Source: Protoeuglena noctilucae (taxonomy: Eukaryota > Chlorophyta > Pedinophyceae > Marsupiomonadales > Marsupiomonadaceae). Taken from it: DNA of 64,000 nt. Shown here piece by piece: positions 1-51,500 of the stretch. The notes under the pieces were generated by a model. It was not told the DNA's origin and made no database searches. It saw only the letters and a program-made list of their open reading frames with translations. Position 1 is the stretch's first letter; each line of letters starts with the position of its first letter. The DNA is taken from the NCBI GenBank assembly GCA_958009085.1, contig OY253675.1, positions 434,001 to 498,000 on the forward strand, written 5' to 3'. The translations under genes and the position numbers were made by a program.

Positions 1-50
1 CACACCGCGACCCCTACCCACACGCACCCACCCCCACTCACCCCCCGCAG

Positions 51-3000
51 TTCCTACCTCCGTTGCCGCGCCATCCACGACCGCCTGCTCCGCACCTCCG
101 CCCTCGCCCACTGGGCCGCCCTGGCCACCTCCCAGAGACTGGCGCGGCTGAGTCAGGCCGCCGGGATCTCGTTTCACGCCAAGTCCTGCCAGCTGCGGTG
201 CTTTGCGGCCTGGAAGCATCTTCTGCTAAAGCGCAAGATGCTCGACGATCGGATGCGCGCGCCTGCGACTGTGACCATCGCAAACGCCACTATCCCCACC
301 ACCGCCACTGCCGGAGTTACACGGGGTGTGGCGCGTGGCACCACCACCACCACCACCACCGCTGTCATTGCACGCGGCAGGGCAGGGACTGTGGTTGATA
401 AGGGTGCGACGATCGCGGATCCCAGTGGGGGTCCGCTGCCCCGGCTGGGCGACGCCATTGGACGGGGGCTGGGGCGCGTGGCGGGGCGGTTCGAGGCGGC
501 GAGGGTGCAGGTGAGGGGTCACAGCTGTGGTGGTGAGCGTGCGGGGGTGCAGGTGAGGGGTCACAGCTGTGGTGGTGAGCGTGCGGGGGTGCAGGTGAGG
601 GGTTGCTGCCGTGGCGGCTGGGAGCATACTCGCATTTTACGTGGGTCGCTACATGTGTACACATCTGCCCACATCGTAGCTCCACTCATCAACCCCACCC
701 CATGTTAACATCCACCCCCCTCTACCACAACTCAGATCCATCAGTGCAAGTCCCTGCTGCGCCGCCTGGCCCCTCACCTGCGCTTCACCGCAAGCGGTGA
801 CGATGTGCAGTGGGCCGCCTCCGTCCACGCCGTCCGCACCGCCCGGGCAACCGCCGAGCGACAGCAAGCATCGACACAGTTACCACAGTTACCGCGTGAC
901 AGTGATGGTCGCAGTGGGGGTGGTAATGCAAGGGGAGTGGGGGCTACGAGAGCGGTAGAGCTGGGGCCTGTGCCGGAGGCGCAGCGGCTGGGGCTGGGGG
1001 AGGCGGGGCAGCGAAAGGCGATGATGAGGGCGATGGGAGTGGCGCAAGGAATGGGTGGGGGAGGCAGTGGGGTGGCTGGGGGGGGTAGCGATGCGGGTGC
1101 GGGTGGGGGTGCGGGTGCAGGTGTGGGTATAGGTATGGGGACAGAGGTGGAGGTCAGTTTGGGGTCTGCGTTGGGTGCGGCGGAGGGTCGCGATGCGCCG
1201 GCGACGGTCAGTGGGACGTTCGGGGGGGTGTCGACGGTGGATGGGGTGCATGCTGCGCAAGTGCATGGGTCATTGCCCGGCATCCCCGCTGGCTTGGCGA
1301 TACCTGAGATGTTCCAGGTGAGACCTGAATGCTGCACTGAGTCAGGTTAAGTGCCCGGCAGTCAGTGCGACACTGCAGCTATCGAGAGAGCACTCGCAGC
1401 ATTCATAGTTAATTAGATAGTGTTGCCAGTAAGTCTCACTGACTTGCAAACCAATCAATCCCCTTATCTGCCACCACCGCCGCAGGTGGACACGGAGCCC
1501 GGCTGGGCCCACCTGGCCCGCATCCTGCAAAGCGTGCTAGACACCATGATAGCAGCTGGCGGTGCCTCATCCGCCACCCACATCGTCCGGGGAATGCGGG
1601 ACGTGGCTACAAGCAGCCAAATTGGCGACTCGCTTGCCCTGCGTTTTCTGGCGGAGGCGGCGGTGTTAGCAGCCAGGACGGCGGGGGCGGGAAGGCCCAG
1701 GCACGCCCCCTTCCGCCCCACCCTCGACCGCATCGCAAATGCGCTGCGCGCGGAGCTTGCGGCCGCGACGCCAATCGCGGGAGCAGACGCGGTGTACACA
1801 GCTGCCACCGACACCGCACTCACCGCCACTCGCGTGGCTGCCGCCCTCGCCGCCACCGCCGCCGCCCGTCTGGCCGAGGGCGTACCCGGCCGCGATCCCC
1901 AGAACGTGCTGCGCCGTCCCCTGTCGCTTTCGGTGGAGGAGGTCGCCCGGCTGGAGTCCGGACTGACACGGGTGTCTGACGCGCTGTCTGGCGTTTCGCC
2001 CCCGCGTGACCCGGGGGCCATCCCGGGCGCCCTGCGGACCGCCGCTTCGGCGCTGCGGGGCTTTGCGCTGGAATTGGCGGAATGCGCCGACCGGGCGCGG
2101 GGCTGCGAGGTCGCGATGCGGCACGAGGTGGGGGCGTTGGGGGAGGTGGGGGCGGCAATGGCGGCGGCGGCAGATGGGGCGTTGACTGCGGTGCGGGCGC
2201 GCGCGGGGACGCTGCGATCGCTCGCGGGAGCAGGGGCGGGGGCGGATGGGGATGGGGAGCTGGTGCGGAGGCTGCGGGAGGAAGAGGGCGTGCATGCGGG
2301 GCGGGCAGAGCGGTTGCAAGCGCAAGCGAGGGAGCTGGACGAGATTGCTTCCGATGCTGTGGATCTTTCCATGGCTGCGTTCGAGGCCAAAGTGGAGGGG
2401 CAGGCGCGGGTGAGGAGTGTTGGGTGCTGGGTGCTTGGGTGTGGTAGCAATGTGGGTGTGGTGGCAGTGTGGGTCATTGTGTTATGACTCGGTTAGTGTT
2501 ACGAGTGTTACCATCGCTAGCACTCTCAACCGTGATAACAATAATAACCTTGCGCTTTTTAACAACACCCCCCCTCTCCCCCCCCCCACACACACAGGTA
2601 GCAGACATGGTGCGCAACCGCCCGCGCCCCTCCCCGCCCCTCGCCCCGCCCCCGCCGACCCTCCCAGAGGCAACGGCAGCGGTGCAGAGTGCACAAAACG
2701 AGGAAACGGAGGCTTTCCGAATGGTGGAGGAGCTAGTAGAGCGCAGGGCGGGGCTGCTGGCTGAGGCTGAGGTGGCGTTGGGAAAGGCGAGGGCGGCGGG
2801 GGCGGCGGCAGAGGTGGCGGGGCAGATGGGGGAGTGGCTGGGGGCGGTCAGCACGCGCCGGGAGGCGTTAGCGGGAGAGCTGTCCGCCCGCGCGGCATTG
2901 GCGCAGCAAGGGCTGGCAACAGCGGTGGAGGCGGCCGAAAGGGCGGGGCGGGAGGCTGGGGCGTTGGCAGCGGCTGCGGGGGTGGCGGCTGACGCAGCGG

Positions 3001-6000
3001 CTTGCGCGGCGCTTCCCTGGGGCGACTTGGATGCGTGGCGCTCTGCAGCTGCGGAGTTGCCGGAGGAGGGGCCAAGGATGGGGGCGTCGCGATTGCGCGT
3101 GTTAGAGCTGAGCGCGGCAGCTGAGGGGACTGCCAGGCGGGCCTGGGGCGACAAGCGGGGGTGGCGGCATGCGGGATCTGACGATGAGGATGAGGATGAG
3201 GGGGATAGTAATGGGGTGCGTGGGGTGGGCTGGCGTGTGGTGGCGGACTGCGATTGGACGGCGTTGATGGAAGTGGGGTTCGCGTGGGGGGACAACGCTT
3301 CGTGGGGGGAGGGGTCGAGGTTCCACCCGGAGGTGACTGACTGATTGATTGGTTTGTTGATTGGTTGACTGATTGATTGGTTGATTGGTTGAGGCTGATT
3401 GACTGATTAATCGGATCGACGTACACAATGCAATCGACCCAACCTTCTATTCAATCCCATCCCCATACCCCACCACCATCGCAGGTCAACCGCAGCCACG
3501 TCTTCGGCATCGACGCATCGGAGCTCCTCATCTACCCCCCCATCGTGCATTTCTACAATCGCTTCGGCCGATCGTGCTCTGCGGAGGAGGCGGGGTACGA
3601 GCCCTACAAGTGGTGGGAGGAGGGGATGAGGGGGGGGGATGGGGTGCTGGACTTTGGTGAGCGGTGTTGGGGGGGGGTGGTAGGGGTAGTGTGGTATGGA
3701 GATGGGGTAGTGTGAGAGGGGTGGTGGGAGGAGGGGATGAAGGGGCACTACTTCACCTCACAACTCACCCACCCCTCGTCTACTATTCCAATTCACTACC
3801 CATTTCCAAACCCCACCCCACCCATCCCTCCCACCCCTCACCCCCAGCCCTCGACCATTCACCGCCCACCATCTACCCACTCACCACCCACTCACCCACC
3901 CATCTCCCATCTCCCCACCCCCCCAGCCCCCCCCGGCACTCGCGGCGCCTCCGTGCGTGGCGGCGCCCATCTCCTCGACAGCCCCGACGACAGCGACTCT
4001 GATAACGAAGATAATAATGATAATGATGATAACGATTATTGCATCATGCCAGTCGGGTCGCGCGGTGGCATCCTGCACGACCTGTGGAGGGTGCGGCTGG
4101 ACTGCGCGCCGAGGACGGCCACGGGGCAGGCGCGGCTGTACTATCTGAGAAAGGTGAGAGGGAGAATGGGTGATAGTTTGATGAATGATAATGTCAGGGG
4201 TGATGGTGTGGTAGTAAGACAGGCGCAGCTATGGGGCAGGCGCGGCTGTACTATCTGTGGAGGGTGAGGGGGGGTGATGGGGTGATGTTTATGGTAGGGT
4301 GTAATTTTGCTTCTTGCGATTGTGAGGCAGTATCTATGGCACATACCAACCACCTTCAACCACCCTCACCCAAACCCACCCATCCCCTTCTCCCCCCTCC
4401 TCCCCCCCAGCTCGCCCGCCGGGCCCTACAAGCCATCGCCCTGTGGCGCGTGCACTGCCACCGCGCGTCGGACATCGCAGGCTCCCTCGGCCGCCGCGCG
4501 CTGATGCGTCGAGCGTTCGACAGATGGCAGGAGTGGCCGGGGGTGGCGAGCGATGCGGCTCTTGCGTTCCGGGATCGCAACCTGGCCGCCAGTGCGATGC
4601 TGGGGTGGGCCCTGTGGATGCACTACAGGCGAGTCACTGTCTATGTGTGATTGGAGATGTGCAATAACTGGCAGCGAGTGCGATGCTGGGGTGGGCGCTG
4701 TGGATGGCGAGGGTGCAGAGGAGGGTGCAGTGACTGGGATCGTGCTGTGCAAATTACTGTCACTGATACCCATACTGGTATCCGTATTGGTGTCGGTATC
4801 GTATCGGTAATGGTATTGGTATTGTTACTAATACCAATACTGATATTGATCACTCCCCCCATCCCCCCAGGGCCGCCAAGCTCTCCGCAATCCTCGAGGC
4901 CCAGTCCTTCTACCACCGTCACCTGCAATCCACCGCATTACTATCGTGGCAACTATGGCTGGAGCGGCGCAGGGAGCTGCGGGAGAGCTACGAGCGGGTC
5001 GTGGCCGCCAGACACCGAGGGCGGATGCGAGAGGCATTCGGTCACTGGCACGCGATGGCGGCACAGCGCGCGCTGCTCACGCGCGTGTTCACGCGAATGC
5101 AGGAGGCGTGGGAGGGCGTGGGGTGGCACCCGGAACACCACTACGAGTTCGATCTCATGCAAAGGGTGATGGGTGCGTGGCGGGAGAGAGCGGGCGAGGT
5201 GGTAGCGAAGCGGACCGGGGCAGCGCGGGAGGCGGCGGCGGAGGCGTACCGATCCGCGTCGCTCGCGCACCGGGCGATGAGCGCGCTGCGGGCAGCGGGC
5301 GGGGAGGCGCGGGCGCGGGGGCGGCTGAAGTCCCGGGTCTTCCGTGCGTGGTGGGCGGTGGCGGCGGTGGAGGCGCTGGAGGGCGGCGGGGCCGGGAGGA
5401 GCCAGCTGCGCGCGGCGGGGTACGCCAATGAGGGGCAGTACGATCGCATACGGTGCGTGTGGGGTGTGGGGTGGGATTGTTGGGTGGTTTATGGGGATGG
5501 AACTGTGGTGGTTGGCTGTGGGTAGTTTATCTATCAAATAGATATACGTTGTCGATCTGGTAACGCAATGTACCTCTCCCATTCCCGCAGTCGGCTGCAT
5601 GGGGCGTTTGGCGCATGGCGGCTGCTGTCGCAGGTCCGGTCCCGGCCGCTGCAGCTGGCGGCTCTGCTGTGGAAGCAAAAGGTCATGTCTGCCTTCGCAT
5701 TGGGGTGCCGAGCGTCGCGGGAGGAGGACGATTCGCGATTGCGGCCCTTTTTGGAGAAGTGGGGCGGACGGCGGCCGTTGAAGCGGGCATTCCGGGTATG
5801 GCGTGCCGTTGCCAGGAAACTCGCCAGGCTCAGGTGAGGGGATGCGGTCGTATTGCTAAGCGATGATGAGACGATGAGACGGTGAGGATGGGGCGGCGCA
5901 TTTGCAGCTTGGCTGTGGTGGTGGTGGTGGTTCCGATGCAGCAATGGCGACTCACGCAATGTGGATGACAACAATTATCGTTATCATCGCTTAGAGCATC

Positions 6001-6841: not shown

Positions 6842-7190
6842 GGGTTGCGATTGGTAGCTGGGAACGGTTCCGCGGACGGATGAACTGTCGCTGTGTTATG
6901 CTTGAAGTCTTGTTGAAATCGTGACGAGTGCGAAAGTGCGGCGCGCGGCCTCGGCGAGTCAACTGGCGCTGCGTTCACTTGCGACGATGCGGGAGGGCAG
7001 AACTCCTTTCGCGCGCATCCCCGTCCCGCAGTGGCGGTAAAATTGCATTCCTAATACCTTACTCGGCCTTTTTCTCCACCCGGCACCGTGTGCGGATTCG
7101 ACGCGGCCGGGTGCAGCTGCATGAGACGCGCTTGAGAGGGTGATTGGCCCGAAGAGCGAGCCGCGCGACCCCCTCCCCGTGCATGAGAGG
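6842..7190. other. Intergenic region between Sfi1-like gene and GT31 gene
   Basis: This 349-bp stretch separates two genes on the + strand. It must hold the 3' UTR of the first and the promoter and 5' UTR of the second. I see no ORF or RNA gene. Its right end carries the first copy of a 51-bp duplication that spans the next start codon. Confidence 0.6.
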
Positions 7191-7235
7191 ATGATTGGTC
7201 TGAAAAGCGAGCCGCGCGACCCCCTCCCCGTGTCG
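7134..7235 (+). repeat. 51-bp tandem duplication over the GT31 start codon
   Basis: Copies at 7134-7184 and 7185-7235 are about 90% identical (both contain agcgagccgcgcgaccccct followed by ccccgtg). The first copy has GTG where the second has the ATG start at 7191, and both share one reading frame (MIGLKSEPRDPLPV; the first copy would read IGPKSEPRDPLPV). Confidence 0.92.
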
Positions 7236-8895: not shown

Positions 8896-9344
8896 CAAAG
8901 ACTGTTCTATATTGATTGTTTTATATTGACTGTATCAATATGGGTACCCATGCTGTGCGCTACCCTGGGGTGGGGTCCGTCGGTGTACAGATGGGTGGTG
9001 GTGTGGGTGGCGTGCATGATTGGTTGACGCGATACTATTATTGAGTTGAGCTCGTAGAAGAGACTCCATTTCTCATTGGCCACCGATAACGGCTGTTCAT
9101 TATATTGACTTCGCCCCATGTGCGCTTTCAAGCGAGTTGCACCAAAGCAATGGCAATGATAACAAACACATGCAAAGCTGTGACTGCAGCGCAAACTGCC
9201 CGCTTGGGCTGCGCAGCGACTCACTGTGTGCCCCAATGCTGCGCCCACTGCACCCCCATGCCACCCTCACTCCCACACATGCTGCACACGCACCCTCACT
9301 TCATAGCGCATGCGCCCTCCCTGCACAGCACCCTCCCTGCACCC
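8896..9344. other. Convergent intergenic region
   Basis: This 449-bp stretch lies between two genes whose 3' ends face each other. It starts A/T-rich (8900-8940, likely the polyadenylation region of the + gene). It then carries short imperfect repeats of cactgca and gcatgcg (9240-9370). I see no ORF or structured RNA here. Confidence 0.6.
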
Positions 9345-12300
9345 TCACTGCATAGCACACGGCATGCGCACGGCAGCCCCCTCCCCCGCCCCCCCCTCAT
9401 CCCCGTCCTCTCGCTCCCTCGCCCGCAACAGCGCTTGCAGTATCGCGGGGTCGAGCAGAGTGCTCAGGCCCAAACGACGGTGGCTGCCCTGCTTAGCGCT
9501 CTCCTGGTTGTGGCTCACCTGGGGGGAAGTGGGGGGGAGTGAGGAGTTATGTATAAAAGACAATTATTTACATCCGCAATAACCAATAAAATTTGCAATC
9601 ATATATAAGTATTATGATATTATTATGAGTTCACCACCACCACCCCTCCTTACTCTTACTTTGTACTTATCATCATCAAATCGTTCTGTTATTTATATCA
9701 ATATAGTAACAACAACACCCACTCACCAGCGTCTCAAGCGCGTTCGCGTCCACCACCGACCCCCCCTCCCCCTCCCCCCCCTCGCCCGCCCTCGGCGCCC
9801 ATATTCTGACGACGCTCTCGATGCCAGAAGTCGCCAGAACGGGGTCCACCGGGTGCGGCTGGCAGCAGTTGGCCACATCCGCGTCCGCAAGCAGCGCCGC
9901 CACCAAGCGACCGGACTGGGGGATAAGGGGGGTTATATAGGGAAAGGTATGATTGAATTATGGATAAGGGTTACTCGCGAGCAGGGCTGCCACCAGGCGA
10001 CCGGACTGGGGGATTGGGGGAGAGAGGGGATAAGGTGTGGGTGGATGATGGTGTATGACATGTGTGGGTGTAAGGGTGCTCAGGCATGTCAAATATCAAC
10101 CCTTCACACTATACACCCTCACGCTCACTGCCACCCCCACTGCCACCGCCACTGCCACCCCCACTGCTACCCTCACTCCCCCGCTCCCCACACCCCCACT
10201 GCTACCCTCACCCAATTGTATATACCACCCCTCCAACCACCCCCTCACCTCCGCCTCATGCAGGAACACAAACACAAACACCACCCCCACCACTCTCATC
10301 CCCACTGCCACCCCCACTGCAACCTCAACCCCACCACTCCACACACCCACACCCACAATCCCCTCCCCCCCCCCTCACCTCCGCCTCATGCAAGAAGACG
10401 TGCCCGCAGTCGGAGCAGCACGCGACCAATCGGTCGTCTCTCCCCACAAAGCACGCCTCCTTGATGTCCGTGTGCACGTTGCAGTGACCCACGTAGCGGC
10501 GGGTGAGGCGGGAACCGCCCTGGCTCAAGTCGCGGAGCCAGCGCTGGGGGGGTTACGAGAGACAGTAATAGATAGATTAGTTAATAACTGATTATGACCA
10601 GCTGATGTTGCCAGCGCTGGGAAGGGGGGAGAGGATAGATAGTAATGGAATAGTTGTTGATGAATACATTAATGATGAACACTTTCCAACTCACTAGCAC
10701 CCGCGACACCCATTTCAATACAACCAACCCCCACCTCCCTATCTCAATACAGCCACCCCACTCACCCACGACAGCCTCCTATCCGGCAACACCACCCCCG
10801 TCCCCCCCACCCCCTCCCCCCCAACGCTGATTGCCTCTCTGTCCGGCCCAGGGCCCCACCGCTGCCCAGACTCGTCCACCAGGCACTCCTCCACCCTGCG
10901 AGGGCGAATGGGGGATGAGACGCGGGTTTGAATCCCGGGGGAGGCAAGGGACTGTGCAAGAAAGCGACACACGGGGAACGGCAGAGCCCCCTTGCATGCC
11001 CGTCACCACAGCCGCGCTCACTGCCAACATGCCAGGCCCTCACACCTCCCTCACCCACACCCTCACACACCCACCCCTCCTACTCCCACACCACCCCCTC
11101 CCCCCTCACCCCGCACTCCCACCCCCTCCCCGCCCCTCCTGCCCCCTTCCCCCACCGCTCCCACCCCCCTCCTCATCATCACTTGAAATCCCCAGCAGCT
11201 CCCGCAACCGCCTCCGCCCCCGCTCCCCCGCACCCTCACTGTTACTCTCACCCCCATCACCACTCTCAATGCCACCCTCATCACCACCACCACCCTCACC
11301 CTCACTGCCATCCTCACCACCCCTGCCACTGCCACCCCCACTGCCACCCCTATCACCATCCTCACTGCCCCCCTCACTGCCGCCCCCCACAAACCTCGCC
11401 ACCACCCCCACGCTCCCCACAACGCGCTCCTCGTCCCCACTCCCCTCCTCCACCCTCTCCTCCACTTGCACTTGCACATCCAAACTCACGTAACTGCCAC
11501 TGCGACGATGCATGCCCCGGCTGCCCCTCCTATCACCTGCACCCGCACCCGTACCCTCACCGCCACCCTCACCCCCACTGCCACTGCCACCCTCACCCTC
11601 CCCCCTCCTCCTCACCACCCCCTCTGCTGCACCCCCACCGCCACTCCCACGGCCACCACCACCCGCACCCCCACCACCCCCACCCCTCCTGCGCTTTCGG
11701 TTCTCCCATCCCTGACTCAGCCGCTGGTCCAATTCCGCAATCTCCCCAATCATCGATGGGAATCGAACCTTGAAGTCATCGACCGCCTGACGGGCACTGC
11801 GGGTGGGTGGTTGGGAAGAGGGGAAGGGGTGGCAGTGGGGGTGGCAGTGGGGGTGGTGGGTGTGATGGTAGCAGTAAGGGTGGCAGTGAGGTCGTGGGTG
11901 GGCAAGGGTATGCTGATACACACTACTCACCCTCTCCCACACCTGATGGCCAGCCCCTAGGCATTACCCAGTCATCATCCTCAGTCATGCACTCCCTCGC
12001 CTGACCACCATCCCCAATGCAACCCGCATGCCTGCAACTGCTTTACCACCATTATCACCACCACTCATCATCCCCCTCACCTCGCCACCATCCCCAGCCC
12101 CCTCAGCGCCTGTGCCCGTTTAATATAAGGGCGGAAATACCCAGGCGCAGCGTCGATCGCATCCTCGGCATCCATCAGCGCAGAGAAGGCGTCGCCCGCG
12201 TAGTTGCGGTGGAGGTAGGCCGCGGCTCTGTGTGTGGGGGTGGGGGGGGTTGGTGGTGTGTGGTGGTCGTGGTGGTCGTGGTGGTGGGGATAAAGGGGGT

Positions 12301-14868
12301 GGTTGTGGTGGTTGTTGAGTGCGTGAGGGGGCTGAGGGGAGGGAGGTGCGGTGTGGGAAGCGTGCAACTGAGGGAAACACGGTAGGCAACCCCACACACA
12401 TACCCAGATGCACCCCCACACCCTCCCACACCCCCACCTGTTGTTGAGCAGCATGGGGTGCCCCGGTATCCCCTCCAAACACGCAGAGTACATTCCCACG
12501 GCCGCGTGTGGCTGCCGGCGGTGCATGGCCGCATTGCCATGGTCCTTGAATGGGAGATATCGAGAATCGCAGCCCTGCCACTGCGGGGGTCGAAGGGTGC
12601 ATAACAGATGAGTTGTCATGCGAGAGAGCGGGGGTCGCAGCCTGCCACTGCAAGTGTTGAGGTGGCATATCACAGCACATCACGATGCTTTCTTAAGGTG
12701 TGTACATGTCAACTATCACAGCCCAGCCATTGTCCCACACACACCCCTCACAACAACCCCTCACCGCTTGCTCGGCGTTTGAAAAGTCCCTCCCGTCATC
12801 CCACTGCACGCCTCCCTTCACACCCAACGCAGATGTAGATGCACCCAGCACAGATGCCGGCGATTGCTCGTGATGCCCATTTCCCTCCCCCCACGTCCTC
12901 ACAGCAGCTCCCCTCTCCATCCCCACCGCCCCATCCCCACCCCCGTCGCCAGTCACATCAAACGCATAAGCATGGTCGCCGTGATAGGTGGCCACCAATT
13001 GCGATCCTTTATTGGAAAAGGAGACGTAGGTGCAGTGGACGCGGGGGCCATCGCGACTCGACAGGTGGAGGTGGGTGGGGGCAAGGGCGAGGGTGGGGCC
13101 GGGGGCGGTGCGGGCGGCAGAGAGGGTGGTCTGCGGGGGGTTAAGGGAGGGATAGTGATGGTGATGTTAACGGTGATGGTGATAGTGATACTGATGGTGA
13201 TAGTGGGGTGGAAGTAATAGTAATAGTAATAGTAATAGTAATAGTAATAGTAATAGTAATAGTAATAGTAATAGTAATAATAAGCTGCAATCCCTCGCCG
13301 GCGACAGCTTCCTGCGATCGTAAACGCGCACGAACGCGTCCTCGCACCCCAGCGCCATCATGTGCGGTCGGGAGGGGTTGATGGCCAGGGATTTGATGCC
13401 GGTGACGAAGCGTGACCCGCGGCACTCGATCAGCACGTTGGGGGAGTGGGCGGGGTCGGACCTGTGAAGGGGGGGTTAAGTGGGGGTGGGGTGGCGATGA
13501 GGTAGGGGGTGAGGGAGGGCGTAAGTTGCTTAGCCTAGCCGTACGTTTACGTTTAGTATTCTCTCATTCACCCCAATCGCACATGCCCTTTCATAGCCCC
13601 TCGCCTGCCCATTGGCGTTCTCAGGTCGTACTGCCTCACGGTGCCGTCCTCGCTGGCACTCCAGAACAGGTGGGGCTCCATGGGCTCCACCTCCACCTGA
13701 GAGGGAGTGAGAGAGAGAGTGAGGGTCATTGTGAGTGATAGAGGGAGGGAGGGAGGGAGGGATGGTGAGCAAGTGACGGTGCATGCGAGTGACGGGGTGA
13801 AGGAGTGATGGCAGAGATACAACCCATGCACTGCCCATCCCCTCACCTGCTTGACGCGGTCGGCGTGGCAGCGGAAGGTGGTGGTGCGCCTTGACACGCG
13901 ATCGTGCATTGCAGCCGGGTCCTCGTGAGGCGCGGGCGCGGAGCGCGACAGGAGGCGCCAGGGGGCGTCGCGGGGGACCACGTCCAGCGTGTGGTGCGCC
14001 GCGGTGTTGTCCATGGCCCTGGGGAAAGCGGGAGGGTGGGTACTAAAGGGTGGGTGTTGGGGGATGGTACCGGTGGGTGCAGGTGATGGAGGTGAGTCGA
14101 ACGAGAACGCGGGGGACGAGTACAAATAGAGGCCTGCCTTGGGATGTCACGACACGTTCGTAGCTTCGATCGCGCTGCCTTAGAGTTGCTCCATCGAGCT
14201 GCCGAGGTCTGAAAAGCAGCGACTCACCCGGTGACGATCTGCGCGTTGCCCGTGCACGGCAGGAACTTGACGCCGAAGATGTTCATCGTATGGTCCGTGG
14301 CCATAATAATCCCCGAAGTGCCGTTGGTCGGGTAGCGCCTGCGGCGGACGCGGCGGGCGCGAGCTGCGCCCTGCGACCCGGCAACCAGCCCTCCCCGGCG
14401 CCCAGAGGCAGTCTGACCCGCTGCAGCGATGACCGATGCACAAACCTAACTGTACCTGATCATTACGCAGGTATCGTCGGAGCCGGACGCGAGGAACTGG
14501 CCGTCGGGGCTCCACGCGAGACGGTTGACGCACCCGTGGTGGCCGTACAGCACATCCTCCACGCACAGGCTCCGCGCGATGCCTGCGCGCGAGAAGAGTC
14601 GCTGTATAAGGTCATAGACGAGCTGCGCCGACGCGCGGGTCCAGGATTGCGACGGACGGGGCACGCGATAGGGTACGAGGGGCCAAGGGACCGGGGAACG
14701 TGGTTGAAGCCCAGCGCGGCACCCGTCTCCGACAATTGTTGCCCTGCAGGGCTCGAATCGATCGGGTCGAGACGGAGCCATCGCGCCTAGCGGGCACCCA
14801 CCCGGCGTGAAGTCCCCTCGGCCGCCCCAGCCGTCCGCCCGCAGGGAAGCCATCGCGTACTTGTGCAT
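9345..14868 (-). CDS. WDTC1: WDTC1-type WD40-TPR protein, likely CUL4-DDB1 receptor
   Basis: Exons in transcript order: 14868-14802, 14582-14456, 14338-14228, 14018-13847, 13696-13605, 13461-13299, 13130-12765, 12580-12438, 12227-12081, 11796-11110, 10895-10766, 10543-10379, 9915-9727, 9518-9345 (about 910 residues). N-terminal WD repeats include VLYGHHGCVNRLAWSPDG, HLFWSASEDGTVRQYDLR and MALGCEDAFVRVYDRR. TPRs follow at about residues 366-463 (KDHGNAAMHRR, RAAAYLHRNYAGDA). A Gly/Ser/Glu-rich linker (about 480-690) precedes C-terminal WD repeats with RYVGHCNVHTDIKEACFVG and NCCQPHPVDPVLATSGIE. Order and motifs match animal WDTC1 and plant ASG2, which act as DCAF substrate receptors; that role is inferred. 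Donors at 13604 and 13298 are GC. The first exon is the weakest part: 14868 is the ATG that gives a matching phase, but the N-terminus is not conserved. Confidence 0.88.
9981..10020 (-). repeat. Intronic copy of an acceptor plus exon start
   Basis: Repeats the WDTC1 exon start at 9891-9930, sharing gcgaccggactgggggat and the flanking gccacca. On the minus strand both read CCCCCAG|TCCGGTCG. It lies upstream of the true acceptor, so this is an acceptor-side duplication. Confidence 0.88.
10241..10266 (-). repeat. Intronic copy of WDTC1 exon end plus donor
   Basis: A 26-bp match with one mismatch to 10371-10396 (core cccctcacctccgcctcatg). On the minus strand this is the exon end CATGAGGCGGAG followed by GTGAGG, repeated 130 bp inside the intron. 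Confidence 0.9.
13212..13280 (+). repeat. Hexanucleotide microsatellite (AGTAAT)n in WDTC1 intron
   Basis: About 11 copies of agtaat run without interruption inside the intron between exons ending at 13299 and starting at 13130. They are immediately followed by TGATGG-type short repeats at 13150-13205. Confidence 0.95.
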
Positions 14869-16528: not shown

Positions 16529-19500
16529 TCAAAACGGACTGTCCGAACTCTCCCGGTCGTCGTCCGCGAGCAGGTCTGGAGCGAACCCTGGGTCCGCTGC
16601 GCCCGCTGCGATCTCCCCGATGTCTTCCGTTTCCAGAAGCGGCGCCTCCTCCACGAGCGTGACGTCCAGATCGTCCTCGTCGCTGCCCTCCAGAATCTCC
16701 GATCCCTCGCTTCCGGAGACGTCCAGGTCGTGCGCCAGCCGGGAGGGCGCCGTCGACCGTGGCCCCGACCTCCGCATCGCCAGAAGCTGCGACCGCCCCG
16801 ACCCGGCCAGCGATGCGGGCTGCGATCGAACCGGCGACTCCTCCTGGAGACGCGCGAGCTCCTCCCGCTGCTCCCGCACGATCGCCTGCACGAAAACGAG
16901 CGATGTAGTTACCATCCATCAGCCGCGTGACTCATCGCCGCGTTGCCAAACAGCGCGTTGTAATTGCGCAGGTGATATGTCACGAGGTCGCAAACGCATC
17001 CGGACCGCCGCGGCCGCACGCCGCGGCCACCTGCACCTCGCTGCACCTCGCTAGACCACCTCACCTCGGCCTGCATGGTCATGGCCTGGCTCCTCAGCAC
17101 CTGCTCCCGCAGCCGCGCGACCTCCGACGACGGCCCCGCGCCCGCCGCGGACTGCGCGTAGAACCCGCCCCGCGCAGCCGCGTAGCTCCCCCCGACGCTG
17201 GCCGCATAGCTGCTCCTGGCCCGCCCACCCACGCTCGCCCGCCCCGCCACGCTCGCCGCCCCGCTGAACCTGCCCCTGGGCTGCGCCGCGAACGCCGGGT
17301 CCACGAACACCGGATTCCTCTCGTAGTATCTCCGCATGTCTTCCTCAGACTGTGATTAGGGGCGGGGGTGAAGGCAGGTGGGGTCGCATGAGTGTGAGCA
17401 GAGCAGCGCAAGTGTAAATGGTGCTGTTTCGCACTCCCCTCAACCCTAACATCTCTCCGTGAGTGCCGCTTAGCCCCTGCATCTTACCCTGTCATCCCTC
17501 ACCTCCCGGTAGATGCAGCTCTGATGCTATATCACATTCCCTCTCTCATCCCTCACCTCCCGGTAGATGCGGCTGAGTTCGACCCTCACCTCTCTTTATA
17601 GCAGCTGCACCTTACCCTCTGCATCTTAACCCCTCATCCCTCACCTCCCGGTAGATGCGGCTGAGCTCGGCGTCCGTGAGCTCCCGGAACTTGGCCAGCC
17701 CCATGGGCAGCCTCCCCATGATGTCCTTGACGAGCGCGGCCGCCAGTTTCTGCGCCTCCTGTTGCTCCAGCACCTCCGCGGGCGGCCTGGCGCGCTGGAG
17801 CAGCAGCACGAACACGCTCGACACCGCCACCGCGAACGACACCGCCAGAGCACGATCGGTCAGGAAGGGGCCCAGGTACGCGACTCCCATCAGCACGCGG
17901 TTGACTGTGTTGGCCTCGTGGGTGAGCAACTCCACCCGGCTCACGCCCATGCCGAACCAGCAGAGCGCGGCGACCGCCATGCACAGCACGAACCGGTGGA
18001 AACGTGCTTCGTCCAGGACGAGCCCCACCACGAGGGAGTAGGAGTAGAGGCTGACCACGAACGAGGAGCCGTGGTACATGGACACCCAGTCCTTGAAAAG
18101 GATATGGGCGCCACCCACCACGACCTCGGCACTCAGGATGCGGTACTGCTTGTCCTCGTCCATCAGCGTCAGGGCGGTCGCGACGAAGCACATGGCCGCG
18201 GAGAACGCCAGGGAGAGTGCACGGAGGAAGAAACGGTCCAGTCGGAATCGCCTTGCGTACCAGAAGACCTGGAGGGGGGCGGTGGCGAGGAAGTAGGCGC
18301 CACTGAGGGTCGACCAAAGGACATCTGGGGGGGGCAAGGGGAGGTAAAAGGGTTTGTGTGTGGGGGTTTTTATTCGGAAGGGGAGCGGTGGGGGTGGGTG
18401 TGTTGTTGTCAGGTGCGGTGCTTGCGTGTGTGAGCATCAGTTGGTGGTTGTGGATATGCTAATAAAACACTCCCACACCACTTGCCTGGGAGGAACTTGG
18501 CCCATCGTGGCTTGGCGTCGACCCATGCGGGCCGCACGGACAGCCACGTGAGGAGCGGCCCTGCGAGCTGGTAGGCTGCCATGGCCATGATGGCGCAGTA
18601 GAGGGTGAAGAGGGCGCTGGAGGGGAAGGGGAGGTGGGGGGCGAAGATGGCGGAGAACGCCACCACTGCGGGGGTGGGGGGTGGGGAGGGGTGGGTGGGG
18701 AGGGTCAGAGTGGGTGAGGGGCGAGCTGAGCGGAGAGCAGCATGGATGAGGATGTTATCAAAAGCGAGCACGGTGGACTGTGCGACTCCATACCGACACC
18801 CATACATGCCTGTCACTGAGTCCCGCACTCTGTCGCTACCCCTCACTGACATCTCCCTGTCGCTAACCCTATCGCTACCCCTCACCGACGTCTCCTGCCT
18901 GTCGGTGCTGCATCGACTCTACGCGGTAGTACCCGTCCTTCTCCCTCGCCTTGGCCTCCCGCTTGCCCCGCCAGACCTGGAGTGTGGGGCGGTCTGCGAC
19001 GGGGCGAGCGGTGGCTGAGAGCGTGAGGTTGGATCACAGGATGCACATGCATGGATAGTTGGGATAGGTGAGGTGTATCGAGCTTGGTTTGCGTAATGGG
19101 CATGCATGGGTGGGATGTACACGCCACCAAACACAAACAGAAACTAAGCCAGTCCCATTCATAGGTCTCACCTATGAGGTTCCACACGATGCCGACCCCC
19201 GCTGCCATGGCGAGTGCCCCCTTCCACCACGACGCGAGTGGCATGTTGGCCGTCTGCCACACCCACAGGTAGAGCCACGCGGCAGCGCAGTACTTGTACA
19301 CGTCGCGGTACGTGCGGGAGTTGTTGTGGCAGGGGTCCTGGGAGACATCGGGGGAGAGAGTAGAGAGAAATGAGTGTGGCGGATAAGAGTTGGCAGTCCG
19401 ATGCGCGTGTTGCAACTCTTGAGTTGCGCCGGCAGGGGCAACTGTCACGTGACCACAGGCAAAGCGAGCGCTGCATTCGACCCCCAACACAAAGAGGCAT

Positions 19501-27400: not shown

Positions 27401-30400
27401 GGTCACCGCAGCCACTGCCACCGCCGCACCCCGCACCGTCACTGTGGCACCCGGCGCAATGCCAGCGATGCTCAGTGGCGTGGTGATGTCTGTTGCAACA
27501 CCGGCTGCGGCCATGCCAGCACTGCACCGCGGCATGGTGCACTCTGTTGCCATTCCAGCTGTCGCCTTGCCAGCACCGTCAGCACTGCATGGTGTTGTGC
27601 TCGTGTTTGCCTCGTGACCGGCACTGCACTGTGCGCCACAAGCACAAGACTCTGCCCCACGTCCCTCTCCCACTGCCACGCCACCACCGGCCACCCAAGC
27701 ATTGCCGCAACGACCGCCCCCCACCGCCACCCCAGTCCCTTGCCCCATATCCCCCCCCACCCCACCATCACCACCACCCCGCCCCTCTACCAGCATCAAC
27801 AGCACTCGCCATGTCGCCTCTGCCACCTCATCCCCCGTCACAGGCGCCAATGCAGGCGACAACCACCCACTCCTCAACGCACCCATCGCTGCACTGTTAT
27901 CGCCACTGTTGCCATGCACCACCCCAGCGCTACCACCATTCCCATCCCCACCCACCATCGCACCCGCTGCCACCCTTCCCACCGTTGCCCCATTCACACC
28001 CTCACTCACTCCCCCACTCGCCGCCCCACCCACCACCCCGCTCGCCGCCCCCCTGCCCCTCACCCTCCCCCCCTCCCCCTCTTCATCCCCCACCAGCGGC
28101 AATGTGAGCAGCAGCGTCCCCTCAGGGTGCACCACCATCTCCCCCAGTATCTTGGCCTGCCGTGGGGTAGCCCTCTGGAATTTGAATTTCTGCTCCCACA
28201 TCGCATAGACCTTCTTGGCGGCGGGCACCACCAGTCGCTGCACGTGTAGGGACTTGAGGATGTCGCACAATGCGCGCATCAGGGCTGTCAGGTGGCCCTC
28301 GCGGCTGCGGAGGGTGGGGAAGGGGGGGTGAGTGGGGGTGTGGGTGTGGCAGTGTGGGTAGCAGTGTGGGTGTGGATGCGCAGTTAACCCTCTCCTTATC
28401 ACATCGATCCTCACCAGTACCCCTCCTTGGTGGCCACGCAACAAGCACTACAATTCCCCATAATCCCCATACATACAATATCAATATCAACTCTCACCGG
28501 TACCCCATCTTGGTGGCCACGAACGGCATGTCACACACAACCCCACAGTACTATACTATCCTATACTATACTACATACAGCACCGACCCTCACCGGTACC
28601 CCTCCTTGGTGGCCACGAAGGGCATTTCCGCAAACCTCCCCCCGTGCACCCTCACCACCCCCGCACACAGCGCGCACCCCCCCCTCCGCAACACCACCAC
28701 CCGAAACTCCCCCAAATCCAACTGACCCAACTCCGTGGGCTCCCGCGCGAACAGCACCGCCTCGGCCAGACTGACGCCGCCGACGCCGCCAGAATGGTCG
28801 TTGTCAGAAACGGGGGCGGCGATCAGGTCGAAGGACTCGCGGAAGATGGACAGCGCAGCGGCGACGGTGCTGCGGGAGGCGCGGCGGCTGGGGTCGTGGC
28901 GCTGCGGGGGGGGGGGGTTGGGGGGGTGAGGAGGTGAGACAGGGGTGAGTGGGTGGTGTGTGAGTGATACAGTCATATACTGGCCTGGTTAGAATCATTA
29001 AACTAGTTATATAGTATCTGTAGTTGCTATGATATACACAGATCTTATCCCCGCTCACCACGATCTCGATGGTGAGTTCCTCGCTCCATTCGATGTCCTG
29101 GCGCACGCCGTCCATCTGTGATGGAAGGAGGAAAGGGTGACAGTGATAGCATTGGGTGATAGAATATCATTACCACCATTTAGCCACACTGACATTACTA
29201 CCCTACCCTAACCCTAACCCATACTATATCAGTACTATGAACTCGCCATGTTCAGTCAGTCGTCGATCTATAACATTGCCACCATTCAGCAATTATCAAC
29301 ACTGGTCATATTCCCATATATTAACCACTCGCCTTGTCCAGGTAGTCGTCGATCTCCTCGCACCTCTCCCCGCACAGCCACTTGTCGCCACTGCCAATCC
29401 ACTCCTCTCCCCACCGCTCCCCCGTCTCCTCCTCCCAGCAACGCACGTGCACGCAGGCGCTGGGGGGGGGGTGGGGGGGACGTAAGAAGTGGTATTGTAC
29501 CTATACTTCAAAGTGTACCTATACTTCAAAGTGTCATTATCAGTATTAATATTAATGAAAAATGTGTTATTTTATCCCCATCTCCCCACCCGTCAGTCAC
29601 CTCTGGCAGCAGTCGCACACGATGAGGGCGTGGGGGTGCCACGGGTCGTCGCTAACGTGCTCCTCCCCGCACCGACCGCACGATAGCTCGCGGGTGCACC
29701 AGTCCTCGCGCTCAGCACGTTCCAGGAAGCCGGGGGGGTCGGGGGCGGGCCACAGCACTGGGGGAGAGTGGGGTGAGGGTGTGTGTCATTTATAGTGCTG
29801 TGGCTCATGGCTATGTCTGTCATGATATCGAATGTCTAGAATCAGATATGGAGATGGATGCTATGGATGCTATATCGTATGCCATTGAACTGGTATGCAC
29901 CCTCTTGCTCCCTCCCTCACCCGTCGCTTTCTCCTTCTGCCCTCCCCCTTGTCCCCTCCCACCCCCCCCCCCCCCCCCCCTGCCACCCCTCGCCCTCGGT
30001 GTCTTGCGATTCGCCGCCCTCTCCGCTGCCCTCTCTGCCGCGATCCTCTTGCGCTCCGCCACCATCGCCTGGTAACCAGGGCGGGGGCGGGGGGGCTGCG
30101 GATGGAAGGAGACGTGTCATTATTGTTGAGTTATAGTACAGTTATAAGTAACATTCATGGATATATTATAACTGCAAGCGTGAAAGGTGATTATCCAGCA
30201 CAGCATAAGTAGTACTGGCAACTCTTCAAGTAAACAGCACTACGGCCATCACCCAGGCATCACAATTCCAAGCCCCCCCCCAATCAATCACCTGCCCCTG
30301 CCCCCTGGCATGGTCCTCCCTGATCTCCTCATCCACCATGTGCACCGCAAACTCGTGGGGCGTCAGGTTGCGAATAATGGCAGCCAGTGCGTCCTTCTGA

Positions 30401-35004: not shown

Positions 35005-37972
35005 TCACGCATTCGCGCGCCCGCTCACCACGGCCTTGGCCTTGGTCTGCCCACTGGCGCCCGCACCCGAAGCGTCCAGCAGCGACGGCTTCATGTGCCC
35101 GGGGGCCTGGAAGCCCAGGAGCTCGATCGTCGTGGCCGTCACGTTCGCGAGGCCCGCATCCGGCAGGTCCTGGCGGAAGCGGAGGTGCTCGGGGAGGCCC
35201 TTGCCTCCGATGGCCACCGGCACTGGCGCCAGCGTGTGGGAGGTCAGCGGAATGGGCCCGTTCTCGTCCGTGAGCGCCTGCTGCGTCTTCTTGTCCCTCT
35301 GCACCATATCGTCGGCGTTCCCGTGGTCCGCAGTGACCAGCCACCTCCCATTGACGTCGTCGCAGCAGTCGAGCAGCTCTTTGAGGCACTTATCCACGAA
35401 CGCGCACGCCTCCACGGTCGCCTTGAGGTCCCCCGTGTGGCCCACCATGTCCGGGTTGGCATAGTTGATGCGGATCATGTTGTAGCGGCCCGACCGCAGC
35501 GCCGCGATGCCCGCGTCGGTAATCTCACGGGCCTTCATCAGAGGGGCCTCGTTGAAGGGGCACGTGTCGGATGGGATCTCGACGTAAGTCTCCAGCTTCT
35601 CGTCGAAGTAGCCGGAGCGGTTGCCGTTCCAGAAGAACGTCACGTGGCCGAACTTCTGGGGGAGGTGGGTGCGAGGGGAGGGGGGGTAAGGGGAGGTGGG
35701 TGTGATGGGGTGGTGTGTTGGGGGGTCGCGGGGGATGAGGGTTGTGTGTTAAGCCCCTATGATGCCCTGCGAGTCTCATGCATATTGTCACTGTATTTGA
35801 CCATTCATGTATGTCACATGTACATGAACCCCTCACCTGCGTCTCGGAGCACGCGAAGGTGGCGATGCCGTTCTTGACCAGGTACTGCCCCGACACGTTG
35901 GCGATGAGGGGGGGAGCCACCAGGAACTTGGAGGGGAGCTTCAGGTCACCGTCGTACTGCACAGGAAGAGACCAGGTGGAGTGAGGTGAGGTGAGGTGAG
36001 GGAAAGGGCTGGGTCAGGAGGGATGGGGAAGTGTAGAAGCGCGGCTATGCTTGAGGCTCGCCCGCACTGCACTCGCCATCACTCCCATGCCAACTTGCCT
36101 GCCCCACACTCCCTCGCTTCCCATCGCTCCCACCCCACCCCACTCCCACTCGCCTGCATCATCCCCGCGAACCGGATGTTGGGGAACCGCTTGCGGTCGA
36201 AGTGCTTGAAGTCCGTGTACTCCAGGGCCTTGGACATCTCCACCATGCGGTCGGCACGGAAGTTGAACGTCACCACCGCGTCGCCGTCCTGCACCGCGCC
36301 CACGGGGGTGCCTGACTCGTCCACTGGGGGAAGGGGGGGAGGAGGGGGGATGTGGGGCGGGGTTGGTGGTGCGGATGGGGCGCATCGGTGCAGGAAGTGG
36401 GGTACTGGTCACACACCCACGCCCATCACTCTGCCACGCTGTCTCTCGGCCACTCACCGATGACGAAGGGGTCGGGAGGTACTGATCCCACTACCACACT
36501 CACACCGACAATAGCACCCACACCCATCCCCACCACCACTCCTATACTCACCGATGACGATGGGGTCCAGGGTCCAGGTACTGGTCAGCCACCACACCAC
36601 AGTAACACTTACACCCATCCCCACCACCACATGGCCCCTCACCGATGACGAAGGGGTCCAGGTACTGGTCCGACACGGGCTTGTCGTGGCCGGGCTTGGG
36701 CTTCCGCAGCGTCGTGACGGCGTCCAGCGCCGAGGTGAACTTGTGCGGGGCCTCCCCCAGCACGTGCGCCTCCCAGCCGCGCTGCACGATGGCCCAGTCG
36801 GCCTCGTACCGATCCATCGTGACGTTCATGCGGCCGCCGCCCGAGGCGATGCGCGCGTCGCAGCCGTCGAGCTTCTTCAGGTCCTCCTCCAGAGCCTTGA
36901 CGAACTTGACCGAGGAGCCGTCCTCGACGTCGCGGCCGTCGGTGAGGACGTGGACGCGGATGCGCTTGGCGCCGTGCCGCACCGCGCCCTGGATCGTCTT
37001 GACCAGCTGGTCGTAGCGCGAGTGCACGCCGCCGTCGGACAGGAGGCCGATCAGGTGCAGCGTGTGCTCCGCAAAGCTCGGCTGGATGTGCTTCCACCCC
37101 TCGCCCTCGAACATGCTCCCGGTCTCGAGCGCAATGTCCACCAGGCGCGCGCCCTGGTCCACCACCTGACCGGAACCCAGCGCGTTGTGGCCGACCTCCG
37201 AGTTGCCCATGTCTGCGCGCGGGAGGAGGCCGCGCGTCGCGGGGAGCGGATGGCAAGCGCACGTCCAGCTACGCCGCCCTTGTTCCTCTCGCCTGCGTCT
37301 GAAGGGAGGCCCACGGCGGTCCCGTGCGCCTGGATCGTCCTCCAGCGGTCGGGCGCCGACTCCCGCAGCGCGTCCATCGTCGGCGTCTGGAGGCAAGGGA
37401 GCGCATCGAGCGGGTGACCCATGGGACACGCGTCCGCCGGAGATGCGGGCTCGGCGGCGCGCCCGTCGACGCTGATGCTCACCTCAGCGACGTGGATCGC
37501 GTTCCACTGGTCCTTGTTCACGTTCTCGCCCCACCCGTCCAGGATGACCACCTGCGCACGGGGCCGCCACCCAACCCGATCGCTCGCGGCGTCCCGATCC
37601 ACGCGGCCATCTCCACGAGGACCGAAACGAAGTCTAGCAAGCGGAGATGATTAAGGGAAGGCACAATACTGCGAGATGGGGCAGCCTGAGCGCCCCCAGT
37701 CGAAGGTCGGTCCCAGCCGAGCTCGTCTCGCGGGATGCGGTGATGGCGGAGTGTGACAAAACGTCATCGCATCGTAGGACACGAAGTTAACCCCGATGGA
37801 CCACGCAGAGCGCCGATGCTCGCCCAACATCCGAGTTCCTCGAGGAGACGGAGATGTTGCCATCGACAGCAGCGCCGAGCTGAAAGAAGATACATCGATG
37901 ACGCCGCCTCACCATCACGGGCCCATCCGGCCGCGAGATCGCAGGGTGCGCCTGCAGCTTCATGTCCGCCAT
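35005..37972 (-). CDS. iPGAM: 2,3-bisphosphoglycerate-independent phosphoglycerate mutase
   Basis: Seven exons (37972-37913, 37551-37483, 37386-37293, 37212-36643, 36323-36154, 35956-35837, 35655-35005) give 577 residues, close to the roughly 560 of plant enzymes. It interconverts 3- and 2-phosphoglycerate in glycolysis using two metal ions and a phosphoserine. The family residues are intact: VVILDGWGEN, the catalytic serine in DADMGNSEVGHNALG (spanning an exon junction), LLSDGGVHS, DGRDVEDGSS, VTFNFRADR, YANPDMVGHTGD and VTADHGNAD. No transit peptide is visible, so a cytosolic enzyme is expected. Two introns have GC donors: 37292 (GCAG|GCGAGA, needed to rebuild DADMGNSEVGH) and 36153 (CAG|GCGAGT, needed for GMMQYDGDLKLPS). 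ATG 37972 is the start that splices in phase to VVILDGW. Confidence 0.96.
36453..36588 (-). repeat. Two intronic copies of iPGAM exon 4 end plus donor
   Basis: The exon 4 end and donor (36638-36670; ctcaccgatgacgaaggggt) recur at 36453-36488 and 36547-36588 with minor changes and the same spacing to ggtactg. Each copy preserves the donor GTGAG on the minus strand. The copies are about 92 bp apart, close to a tandem array. Confidence 0.94.
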
Positions 37973-48580: not shown

Positions 48581-51500
48581 ATGGAGGCGATCGGCCAGAC
48601 GTACGTCAACCCCGATCTTGAGGGCGAGGATGAGATTGAGGAGGAGGAGGAGGCGGCCAAGCTCGCCACCGTCTTCCTGGCGAGCGGCGGGGCGAGCGGC
48701 GGGGCACAGGGGACGCCGTTGGTAGGTTGCACCTGCGAACTGGCCCGGATTCTCCCGCACCCGCAGGTGGACATGGCACCGAGCATGCTCCAGCCACGCG
48801 TGGAGAACTTCTCGTGGGCCGACATGGCGCTCCTGAACATCAGCCACCACATCACGCACGACGCCCTCCAGGCCCCCGAGAACATGCACGCCGTCGTCTT
48901 CTTCGGCGCCCAGGCGAGTTGTCGAGTTTATGAGTAACAATCGCGCATATCCGGGATTCCCGGAAGCACCCGGATGCCTCCGCCGGGACGGGCGAAGTAG
49001 TAAAGCATTTGCGCGAGTGTGCGTCCTCACGGCCCTCCGCCGCGCAGGTCCAGGAGCCCAAAGATGCGGACGAGGGCATTCACGTCATGTTGCCGCTGTC
49101 CCGGCCGAGCGTGGCGGGTCTCCGCAAAGTGGATCCCACCAACTTCGACTCCGACGACCATTTGCAAACCGCGATTGGCTCCGCGCCCACGCCGCCCCAC
49201 GGGTCGCGGATCCACTTCCTATCCGCGGCCGTCACCAAGGCCAGGCGAGCGCAATGCGGGTTTTTGTTTGGAGCACACACGCTGCTCCCTGCGCTTCGTG
49301 CTTTGCACCATGATAGCTACAGCACGTCTCGCTCTCCCCTCGCAGGCAGATGCTGGAGAAGCTAATTCGTTCCAAGGGCAAGACCGGCCCGCGCGTGGAC
49401 ATGAGCGTGTACGTCTACACGGACGACGACAACGTGATGGGCAGCGGGAGTGGTGCATTGGCGTATGCCAACAAAGCCAAGGGGGTTACCAAAACGCTCG
49501 CAGAGATGGCCGCGCAGGGCGTGCAGGTGAGTGGTGCGGTGTGGTGGTGTGTCTGTGGCATGGTGTGGTGGAGTGACGGTGCTGCTGGTCATACGGTCGC
49601 ATGGCATGTACTCCAATATACTACTAATAATTTAATACTATATGTAGATACTTGCGACACCATGTGTTCCCTGTTTACCCAGGTGGACGTGGCTCTCTTT
49701 TACGACGGCCCCTCCCTGCCCTCCACCGATGCATGGGACGACCTGCTGCCCGACGTTTCTGGCGTTTCTGGCAGCGCGGGGGGGTTAGGGCAAACGTCGC
49801 AGGCGACGGAGGGGTTAGGGACGCAGGCGACGCAGGCGATGGGAGTGCAGGGGGCGGGACATGGGGTGGACAGAGGGGCGGGGGCGATGGGGATAAAGGT
49901 GGCAGTGGATGGGCAGATGGATGGTCCATCCATGGACATGCCGACGGTCACGCCTTGGTCGAAGGAGCAGGTGCAGGCGCATATACAGGTGACTGCAGGG
50001 AGGGGTGGGGTTTGGGAGTGGTGGGGCGGCAGGGTGGCAGCGCAGAGATGAGGGCTGAACAAGCTTATTGACACCCCCACCGCTACTGCATGGCTTTGCA
50101 CAAATGCCACCCATATCTCTACCTCCACCACCGCAGGGCTTTGAGTGTGGTAACATCCGCGTGGCCCGCCGCAAGCGCGCCTACCGCACCCTTCCCCTCT
50201 GCATTGGGCCTGATGGGCCGCCCTTCATGGTGCGAGCCTACTACACGGTCAAGAAGACGCCGCTGCCGTCACCGGGTGAGTGATTGGTGAAGTGAACATG
50301 GTGATGGTAGTGGTGGTGATGTTGTGGTGCGTGCGTACTACAGGGTCCTGTCAAGAAGACCGCACTGCCGTCACCGGGTGAGTGGCTGGTCGATGATGGG
50401 GAGGAGTGGTGATAACGATAGCGATAATGATTATAAGTAATAGCATTTGATAATAATATGACTCCCTTCTCCCCTCACACTCAGTGTGGATCGACCCTGA
50501 GAACCGTGAGACCAGGCCGCTGACGAAGTTCGTGGTCAAGAGCACCACGCAAGTGATGGACAGGGAACAAGTGACGGGGAGGCAGATACGGTACGGCAGG
50601 GGAGAGACGGTCACGCTGCAGGTGAGGGGTGGGGAAGGGGGGCATGGAAAGCGATGGGGTGGCATACGTAAACAGCTAAAGCGGCTAGATTGTCAGTAAC
50701 AACCCACCCACCCCTACCCCTGATCTTCCCTCATCCACTCACCTCATCCTCACCCCTCACCCCCATCCCCACCCCCCTTACCCAAACGCAGGCATCTGAC
50801 ATGGCGCGTGCCAGAAACCCCGCCAAGGACGCGGGCGTCTCTGGCATCCGCGTGGTGGGGTTTATCCCCAGAGATGACCTGACAGCGTTGGATGAGATGG
50901 GGGCGGGGATGTTCCTGTACCCAGACACCAGCCTGGCCTCAGGTGAGGGGGGGTGGCTGTATATATATTGGTGATATAATGGTTATATTGGATTTGGTTA
51001 TCTATTGGAACCAATATAAAAACTAATTGGATATATATTGACTTGAGAAGTGGCTTGATGCCTAACGGCCACCCTCACCCCTGTTAACACCCTCACAGCC
51101 ACCCTCACTACCCCCGGTATCTATGACCCCCGCCTCTCACCCCGACCCGTTAACCCCCTCCTTCCTGCAGTGCGCAAGAAGCACGTCAGGCAGTTTCTGA
51201 CGCTCCACCAGGCGATGCTTGCGAGGGGGGTGGTGGCCGTGGCACTCATGGCCAGCCCAGCGGGGGGGTGAGTTGTTGTTATGTGTTTTGATGAGTTGTT
51301 GCATGTTGTGTGTTGTCGTTGTGTCGCTGTGCGTTACTGTATGTTGTTGTGTGGATGGTGAGGGGTGAGTGTGTAATTACCAACCACTACCACCCCCACT
51401 GCCACCCACCTTCACACCCCCCCCCCCAGTCTCTCCCCCATTGCCCTCATCCCCACTCGCGAGTCTTGGCTGGGCGATCCCGGCATGGGACTGCAGTTAG

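Follow-up and report, generated by a model that had tools for sequence, protein, structure and literature searches.

Introns of the green alga Protoeuglena noctilucae contain degenerate copies of the neighbouring exon's edge, often with the splice site attached, and in the sequence examined here these copies lie almost entirely in genes with long introns. They were first described in a 64-kb stretch of contig OY253675.1 (positions 434001–498000, hereafter the window) by a sequence-only reading which stressed a bias towards splice donors. The near-restriction to long-intron genes is a stronger pattern than the donor bias and had not been foreseen there. We think it probable that the copies are remnants of ordinary local tandem duplications which spanned exon-intron junctions and which accumulate almost only in genes of this class.

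Near-restriction to long-intron genes

The sample comprised the window and 27 tiles of 10 kb, about 334 kb in all, from a genome of 26.3 Mb in 26 contigs; the GC content of window and tiles is 62–70%. Genes were predicted ab initio by a hidden Markov gene finder, self-trained on this sequence and run on the window and the tiles. The window and the first 25 tiles contributed 557 introns between predicted exons, and 43 were added from two later tiles, L034 and L035, picked beside long-intron tiles once the pattern was known. Local direct repeats were found by a diagonal scan, plain self-BLAST having seemed to miss those of short period (the 51-bp repeat at 7133).

The scan placed 17 duplications at donors, 4 at acceptors and 12 in intron interiors in the window and ten long-intron tiles. 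The 17 short-intron tiles held none; the rate seen in long-intron tiles outside the window predicts 22.9 for them (Poisson 1e-10, a value which ignores clustering). Even at the weak level the short-intron tiles (249 introns) gave six donor and six acceptor matches for 5.2 and 6.7 expected. When introns were classed by the median intron length of their gene (88 genes with at least three introns), copies were present in 0/244 where this median was below 130 bp and in 26/289 where it was above (p 1e-7). These 26 copy-bearing introns were taken at a score of at least 16 with no low-complexity filter, so that the matches at window position 41472 and at L020 1493 are counted in. Because a duplication lengthens its own intron, the median was also calculated with the copy-bearing introns left out, which gave 1/250 in compact genes and 25/283 in long-intron genes (p 2e-6). 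The contrast persists when the gene limit is moved between 110 and 150 bp.

To some extent the long-intron genes cluster by tile (analysis of variance, p 0.003). Intron length also differs sharply between neighbours, as between window positions 1–6841, 8960–14304, 41271–46505 and 48581–53010 on one side and 53028–61057 on the other. Among the window and the first 25 tiles, intron GC content is lower where introns are long (0.57–0.63 versus 0.63–0.69). No relation between the GC content of third codon positions and intron length was seen (rho -0.11, p 0.29), some genes apparently being read in the wrong frame. A possible cause of the restriction is relaxed selection on intron length, through low recombination for example, and we favour this over a locally higher mutation rate.

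Frequency against chance

In the exon-anchored test the last 40 bases of each exon were aligned to the following intron and, as the acceptor counterpart, the exon start was aligned to the preceding intron, with swapped introns of similar length as the null; 457 of the 557 introns passed the length filters. At a score of at least 18, copies of exon ends were present in 12/457 introns and copies of exon starts in 6/457, with 0.0 expected in both cases, and control segments from exon interiors gave 1/345 and 0/357. The scan returned 99 raw local direct repeats at this score (71 after merging) against 2 in a mirror-image null; self-BLAST over the window and 25 tiles gave 48 direct local matches and 3 inverted ones. 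Chance similarity, low-complexity sequence or an assembly artefact may lie behind a few low-complexity or poor matches (window 41472, which is one of the 12 exon-end matches and is to be discounted, L020 1493 and L034 3562), but these nulls exclude such an origin for the strong set, and since the copies differ by substitutions they are not merely doubled reads. As a general explanation it has a negligible probability.

The sequence-only reading had named absence outside the window as a result that would tell against it. Strong copies are present on other contigs, in tiles L015, L021, L023, L026, L027 and L032, and the 43 introns of L034 and L035 contributed four donor and two acceptor copies at a score of at least 16, although two of these four donor copies (L034 3562 and L035 6335) match poorly or are repetitive. 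Local duplication is not limited to junctions, as intron interiors and coding-sequence ends are affected too. Tandem duplications lie across the predicted 3' end of the coding sequence at L023 7367–7484 and L027 7966–8078, the stop-codon analogue of the junction copies. In the window a 51-bp tandem duplication (about 90%, 7127–7232) lies across the predicted start region of gene 7191–8895, whose predicted start may thus be duplicated.

Junction copies in the window

All eight donor-side introns singled out by the sequence-only reading, in six predicted genes, carry degenerate direct copies, each of which could be aligned, and alignment bore out both of its acceptor-side places (9981 and 12635). 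Donor-side copies beyond its list were found at 18820/18859, 29241/29327 and 52573/52636. The features are collected in Table 1.

Table 1. Exon edges and their intronic copies in the window (E, expectation value; flank p, p value of the intron-flank comparison described in the next section; TRF, Tandem Repeats Finder)
Feature	Position	Strand	Details
42-bp tandem array across donor 511	499..603	+	TRF 2.5 copies, 98%; donors 511, 553, 595
Original exon end before donor 4154	4118..4153	+	4118–4174 is the stretch repeated downstream
Intronic copy of exon end 4118..4153 with donor (4231)	4228..4286	+	unit 110 bp; 81% over 59 bp, E 8e-11
Original exon end before GC donor 4629	4582..4628	+	4582–4620 is the part repeated
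Intronic copy of 4582–4620 (4671)	4668..4706	+	92% over 39 bp
Original acceptor junction (exon start and intron end)	9886..9963	-	
Acceptor-side copy upstream of 9886..9963	9976..10051	-	unit 90 bp; 76% over 78 bp, E 3e-12
Original exon end	10379..10399	-	
Intronic copy of 10379..10399 with donor (10241)	10249..10269	-	unit 130 bp
Original exon start after its acceptor	12550..12580	-	
Acceptor-side copy of 12550..12580 with its own TTGCAG	12617..12647	-	unit 67 bp; 77% over 31 bp; flank p 0.34
Original exon end	17645..17669	-	
Intronic copy 1 of 17645..17669 with donor	17545..17581	-	unit 88 bp; 97% over 37 bp
Intronic copy 2 of 17645..17669 with donor	17464..17520	-	142 bp from junction; 86% over 57 bp
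39-bp tandem duplication across donor of exon 18886–18993	18820..18895	-	copies 18820/18859; 81% over 37 bp
Original exon end	28594..28628	-	
Intronic copy 1 of 28594..28628 with donor	28490..28532	-	unit 96 bp; 88% over 43 bp
Intronic copy 2 of 28594..28628 with donor	28402..28438	-	179 bp from junction; 92% over 37 bp
Intronic copy of exon end 29333–29355 with GC donor	29241..29269	-	unit 86 bp; 86%; flank p 0.010
Original exon end	36643..36676	-	
Intronic copy 1 of 36643..36676 with donor	36549..36592	-	unit 91 bp; flank p 0.005
Intronic copy 2 of 36643..36676 with donor	36448..36491	-	185 bp from junction
Original exon end, 48 bases copied	50228..50275	+	
Intronic copy of 50228..50275 with donor (50348)	50325..50390	+	unit 102 bp; 80% over 66 bp, E 3e-12; flank p 0.16
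Intronic copy of exon end 52573–52599 with GC donor	52636..52670	+	unit 63 bp; 83% over 35 bp

Several of these call for comment. Only about 8 bp of the 42-bp unit at 511 are exonic. The copy at 4668..4706 lacks the last 8 exon bases, yet GCGAGG comes next. At 10249..10269 the 21 aligned bases differ at 2 sites, each a synonymous change, and the intron flank is repeated too (p 0.005). The introns with two copies (17492/17546, 28409/28493 and 36453/36547) show 86–97% identity in the ungapped core; the gene with exon end 36643..36676 resembles one for 2,3-bisphosphoglycerate-independent phosphoglycerate mutase. For the copy at 52636..52670 there was no similarity of the intron flank (p 0.92).

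Tandem layout and proposed origin

If a whole unit is in tandem, the part of the intron just past the junction should be repeated as well. Tested on the nearest copy, the intron flank was repeated at p<0.05 in 11/27 loci and at p<0.2 in 18/27 (Fisher combined p 5e-10). Two other loci had too little sequence for this test, and 41472 was excluded. Tandem layout is therefore shown for the set as a whole, not for each locus. Two or three intronic copies occur in the introns at 28594, 36643, 17645, L027 8870 and L035 4968. The simplest account is local tandem duplication, with units of about 40–150 bp and a minority of less regular events.

A unit of this size would be placed beside itself and by chance span an exon-intron junction. 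In the donor case the first, upstream donor would remain in use, and in the acceptor case the last, downstream acceptor, so that the protein would be unchanged and the extra unit would just lengthen the intron. With the exon under selection and the intron copy drifting, a stretch resembling the exon would remain recognisable for a long time, in many cases with its splice signal intact. Such units would accumulate in long-intron genes, where lengthening may be tolerated or the mutation rate may be higher. Two further claims of the sequence-only reading held up in this respect. The 26 copy-bearing introns have a median length of 292 bp against 162 bp for the other introns of the long-intron tiles and the window, and intact-looking donors, potential decoys, are left inside introns.

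A different origin is capture from a diverged allele or paralogue, by which the exon parts would have brought synonymous differences with them and the introns would have been unalike already. The intron at L032 2782–3108 speaks for it, as donor and acceptor copies there surround an inner GT...AG stretch and the donor-side flanks are dissimilar, and the synonymous lean of the stricter copy sets (see below) would suit it also. Against this, the intron flank is significantly repeated at many loci, the acceptor side of the L032 intron (p 0.015) among them. A whole-assembly search with two blocks, the only loci so searched, found matches at their own locus alone and hence no second source. Capture has in our judgement only a slight probability. 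The L032 intron is of note in itself, being a single intron with copies on both sides whose inner GT...AG stretch has ordinary intron length; the gene which contains it we take to encode a protein resembling splicing factor PRP6.

Donor and acceptor copies

In the exon-anchored test (score at least 16, low-complexity exon ends removed) the ratio of donor to acceptor copies was 7:1 for the window, 10:7 for the tiles, where one of the ten donor cases (L020) is doubtful, and 17:8 together (p 0.11). The ungapped scan gave 9:0, 8:4 and, overall, 17:4. With 20 bases required on both exons, the long-intron tiles gave 8:7 at a score of at least 16 and 7:7 at a score of at least 18. Weak matches (score at least 11) occurred in the long-intron tiles outside the window at donors in 32/164 introns and at acceptors in 16/164, with 5.5 expected each, and in the window (113 introns) at 23 donors (6.5 expected) and 7 acceptors (2.8 expected). 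Of the weak donor matches, counted with the window included, roughly half or more are out of register with the splice site, and some are G-rich. Since the window prompted the claim of a bias, the independent sample weighs more.

A simulation in which duplications were placed uniformly and the exon copy protected gave donor, acceptor, intron-interior and intergenic placements in the proportion 21:21:35:23%. The observed counts were 8:4:7:1 in the tiles outside the window (p = 0.10) and 9:0:5:0 in the window (p = 0.0004). These counts omit loci classed as 'mixN', which touch intergenic sequence (three in tiles, one in the window), and three tile loci exonic on both sides, and some of the 'interior' rows, at L027, window 28403 and L035 5038, are additional members of a donor array. 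The donor bias put forward by the sequence-only reading is thus seen for strong copies in the window and for weak ones in the tiles too, but not clearly for strong tile copies, which range from 7:7 to 8:4 by method.

It may be that mutation itself is aimed at donors, with breaks or R-loops at G-rich intron starts producing duplications preferentially there. Donor copies do exceed acceptor copies overall and among the weak matches, the fitted model has introns with G-rich 5' and C-rich 3' halves, and per 1000 available start positions donor-spanning duplications outnumber intron-internal ones (for long-intron tiles, 0.72 versus 0.29 without the window and 0.91 versus 0.27 with it). The near-even ratios of strong copies outside the window (7:7, 8:7, 8:4 or 10:7 by method), the placement test there and the many weak donor matches out of register speak against it. 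Moreover, a copied acceptor comes before the true one in the intron and will probably be taken first. If new upstream acceptors are selected against, the same donor excess could arise with no mutational bias at all. We rate targeting of donors as rather unlikely, and the donor bias itself as uncertain.

One could also envisage two gene neighbourhoods, in one of which transcription-linked duplication, strongest at G-rich intron starts, would continually add units across junctions and drive intron growth, while in the other it would be off or its products purged. We regard this as improbable.

Decay of the copies

With the exon constrained and the intron copy drifting, differences between them should fall about 1:1:2 over the three codon positions. 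Over all 35 copies at a score of at least 16, low-complexity ones included, the differences were 32:34:65, and the excess over 1:1:2 is gone (p 0.57). The copies as a set show near-neutral decay. An impression that the differences are almost all synonymous applied to a hand-picked set only and was dropped. Of 17 cases in which use of the copied donor was followed through, 14 would gain a stop codon and 2 would shift frame, and a single one would stay open. As the protein would be broken in 16/17, the copies are unlikely to serve as useful alternative exon ends, and we infer from the reading frames that splicing must as a rule use the outer sites.

These figures bear on the idea that the copies are functional and that selection keeps them as alternative exon ends or as regulated decoy splice sites. 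The strictest set is mostly synonymous (42 synonymous versus 19 non-synonymous codons) and the donor core is kept in most of 26 copies of a hand-made list. The broken proteins and the neutral codon-position pattern argue the other way, as do a unit length which is a multiple of three in just 7/21 rows and an in-frame stop in one copy (L027). We consider function under selection to be highly improbable.

Weighing of the evidence

Several observations weigh against the account by ordinary tandem duplication in long-intron genes. The limits of 130 bp for genes and 140 bp for tiles were set after the data had been seen. The gene models are ab initio and contain visible errors, such as tiny exons in gene 24176–34177 and a 27-bp 'exon' at 9979–10005 which is part of the acceptor-side copy 9976..10051 wrongly called by the gene finder. 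The intron flank was without similarity in 3/27 loci (L021 5017, window 52600 and L035 3529; p >0.9). At L021 5017 and L035 3529 the copy is also without a donor, so that these two look like short templated insertions and not like clean tandem duplications. Elsewhere the flank is less alike than an exon similarity of about 90% predicts, for example at L032 2782 (p 0.50) and window 50276 (p 0.16). Intergenic duplications fall below the simulation, with 1 versus 4.7 in the tiles and 0 versus 3.3 in the window. Finally, three filtered sets of copies lean to third-position differences (18:17:55, p 0.02; 13:8:45, p 0.002; 11:16:48, p 0.01), a fourth giving 30:27:66 (p 0.24); this lean may mean that the better copies are under some constraint, or that the simple model is in error. 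The sequence-only reading had proposed a single mechanism, tandem duplication across junctions, and this explains most of the cases.

Other features of the sample

Predicted introns begin with GC instead of GT in 145/600 cases, often as GCGAG, a fraction learned by the gene finder itself. On the sense strand the fitted means of intron composition are G 0.43 and C 0.18 in the first part and C 0.40 and G 0.18 in the second. The genome has 21 matches to PF00504 (chlorophyll a/b-binding family), one of which (801 bases read) resembles chlorophyll a-b binding (light-harvesting complex, LHC) proteins of solved structures.

Relation to known systems and significance

Small tandem duplications are common in genomes and can arise at staggered breaks by fill-in synthesis and end-joining, according to PMC8355091, where they are described as more common than any other short (<100 bp) insertion in the human genome and where human and plant analyses hint at break repair as their origin. 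The copies of P. noctilucae resemble the duplications of that account in being local, head-to-tail and tens of bases long, and differ from them in being just old, decayed copies, most of them too diverged for breakpoints to be made out and many with units of about 85–110 bp. By this likeness, fill-in and end-joining of staggered double-strand breaks is the most likely molecular cause, as we infer.

Gao and Lynch reportedly treated intron gain by tandem genomic duplication in 2009. Duplication in tandem of an exonic AGGT is recognised as one way in which new introns arise (PMC3443670, PMC2809761). The likeness is that splice signals are copied within a gene. In the intron gain reviewed in PMC3443670, however, the duplicated exonic AGGT makes a new intron, whereas the present copies lie inside introns between predicted coding exons, each spanning one existing junction, and the old intron is lengthened. 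Introners and other intron-creating mobile elements, the subject of PMC9860276, likewise bring extra sequence with splice signals into genes; unlike these, the copies here are local and gene-specific, and the two blocks searched belong to no dispersed family. No earlier description of junction-spanning, intron-lengthening copies piled up in one class of genes was found among the titles and abstracts searched, which came mostly from papers outside subscription.

The copies point to a concrete route for intron growth in a compact genome, by tandem duplications which carry splice sites along. The contrast between long-intron and compact genes (25/283 versus 1/250) offers a handle on mutation versus selection in the setting of intron length. 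Should the notion of two gene neighbourhoods be true, repeated donor duplication would be a standing source of decoy splice sites. Each copy brings its own clock, and with near-identical donors lying about 100 bp apart the copies also form a natural test of spliceosome choice.

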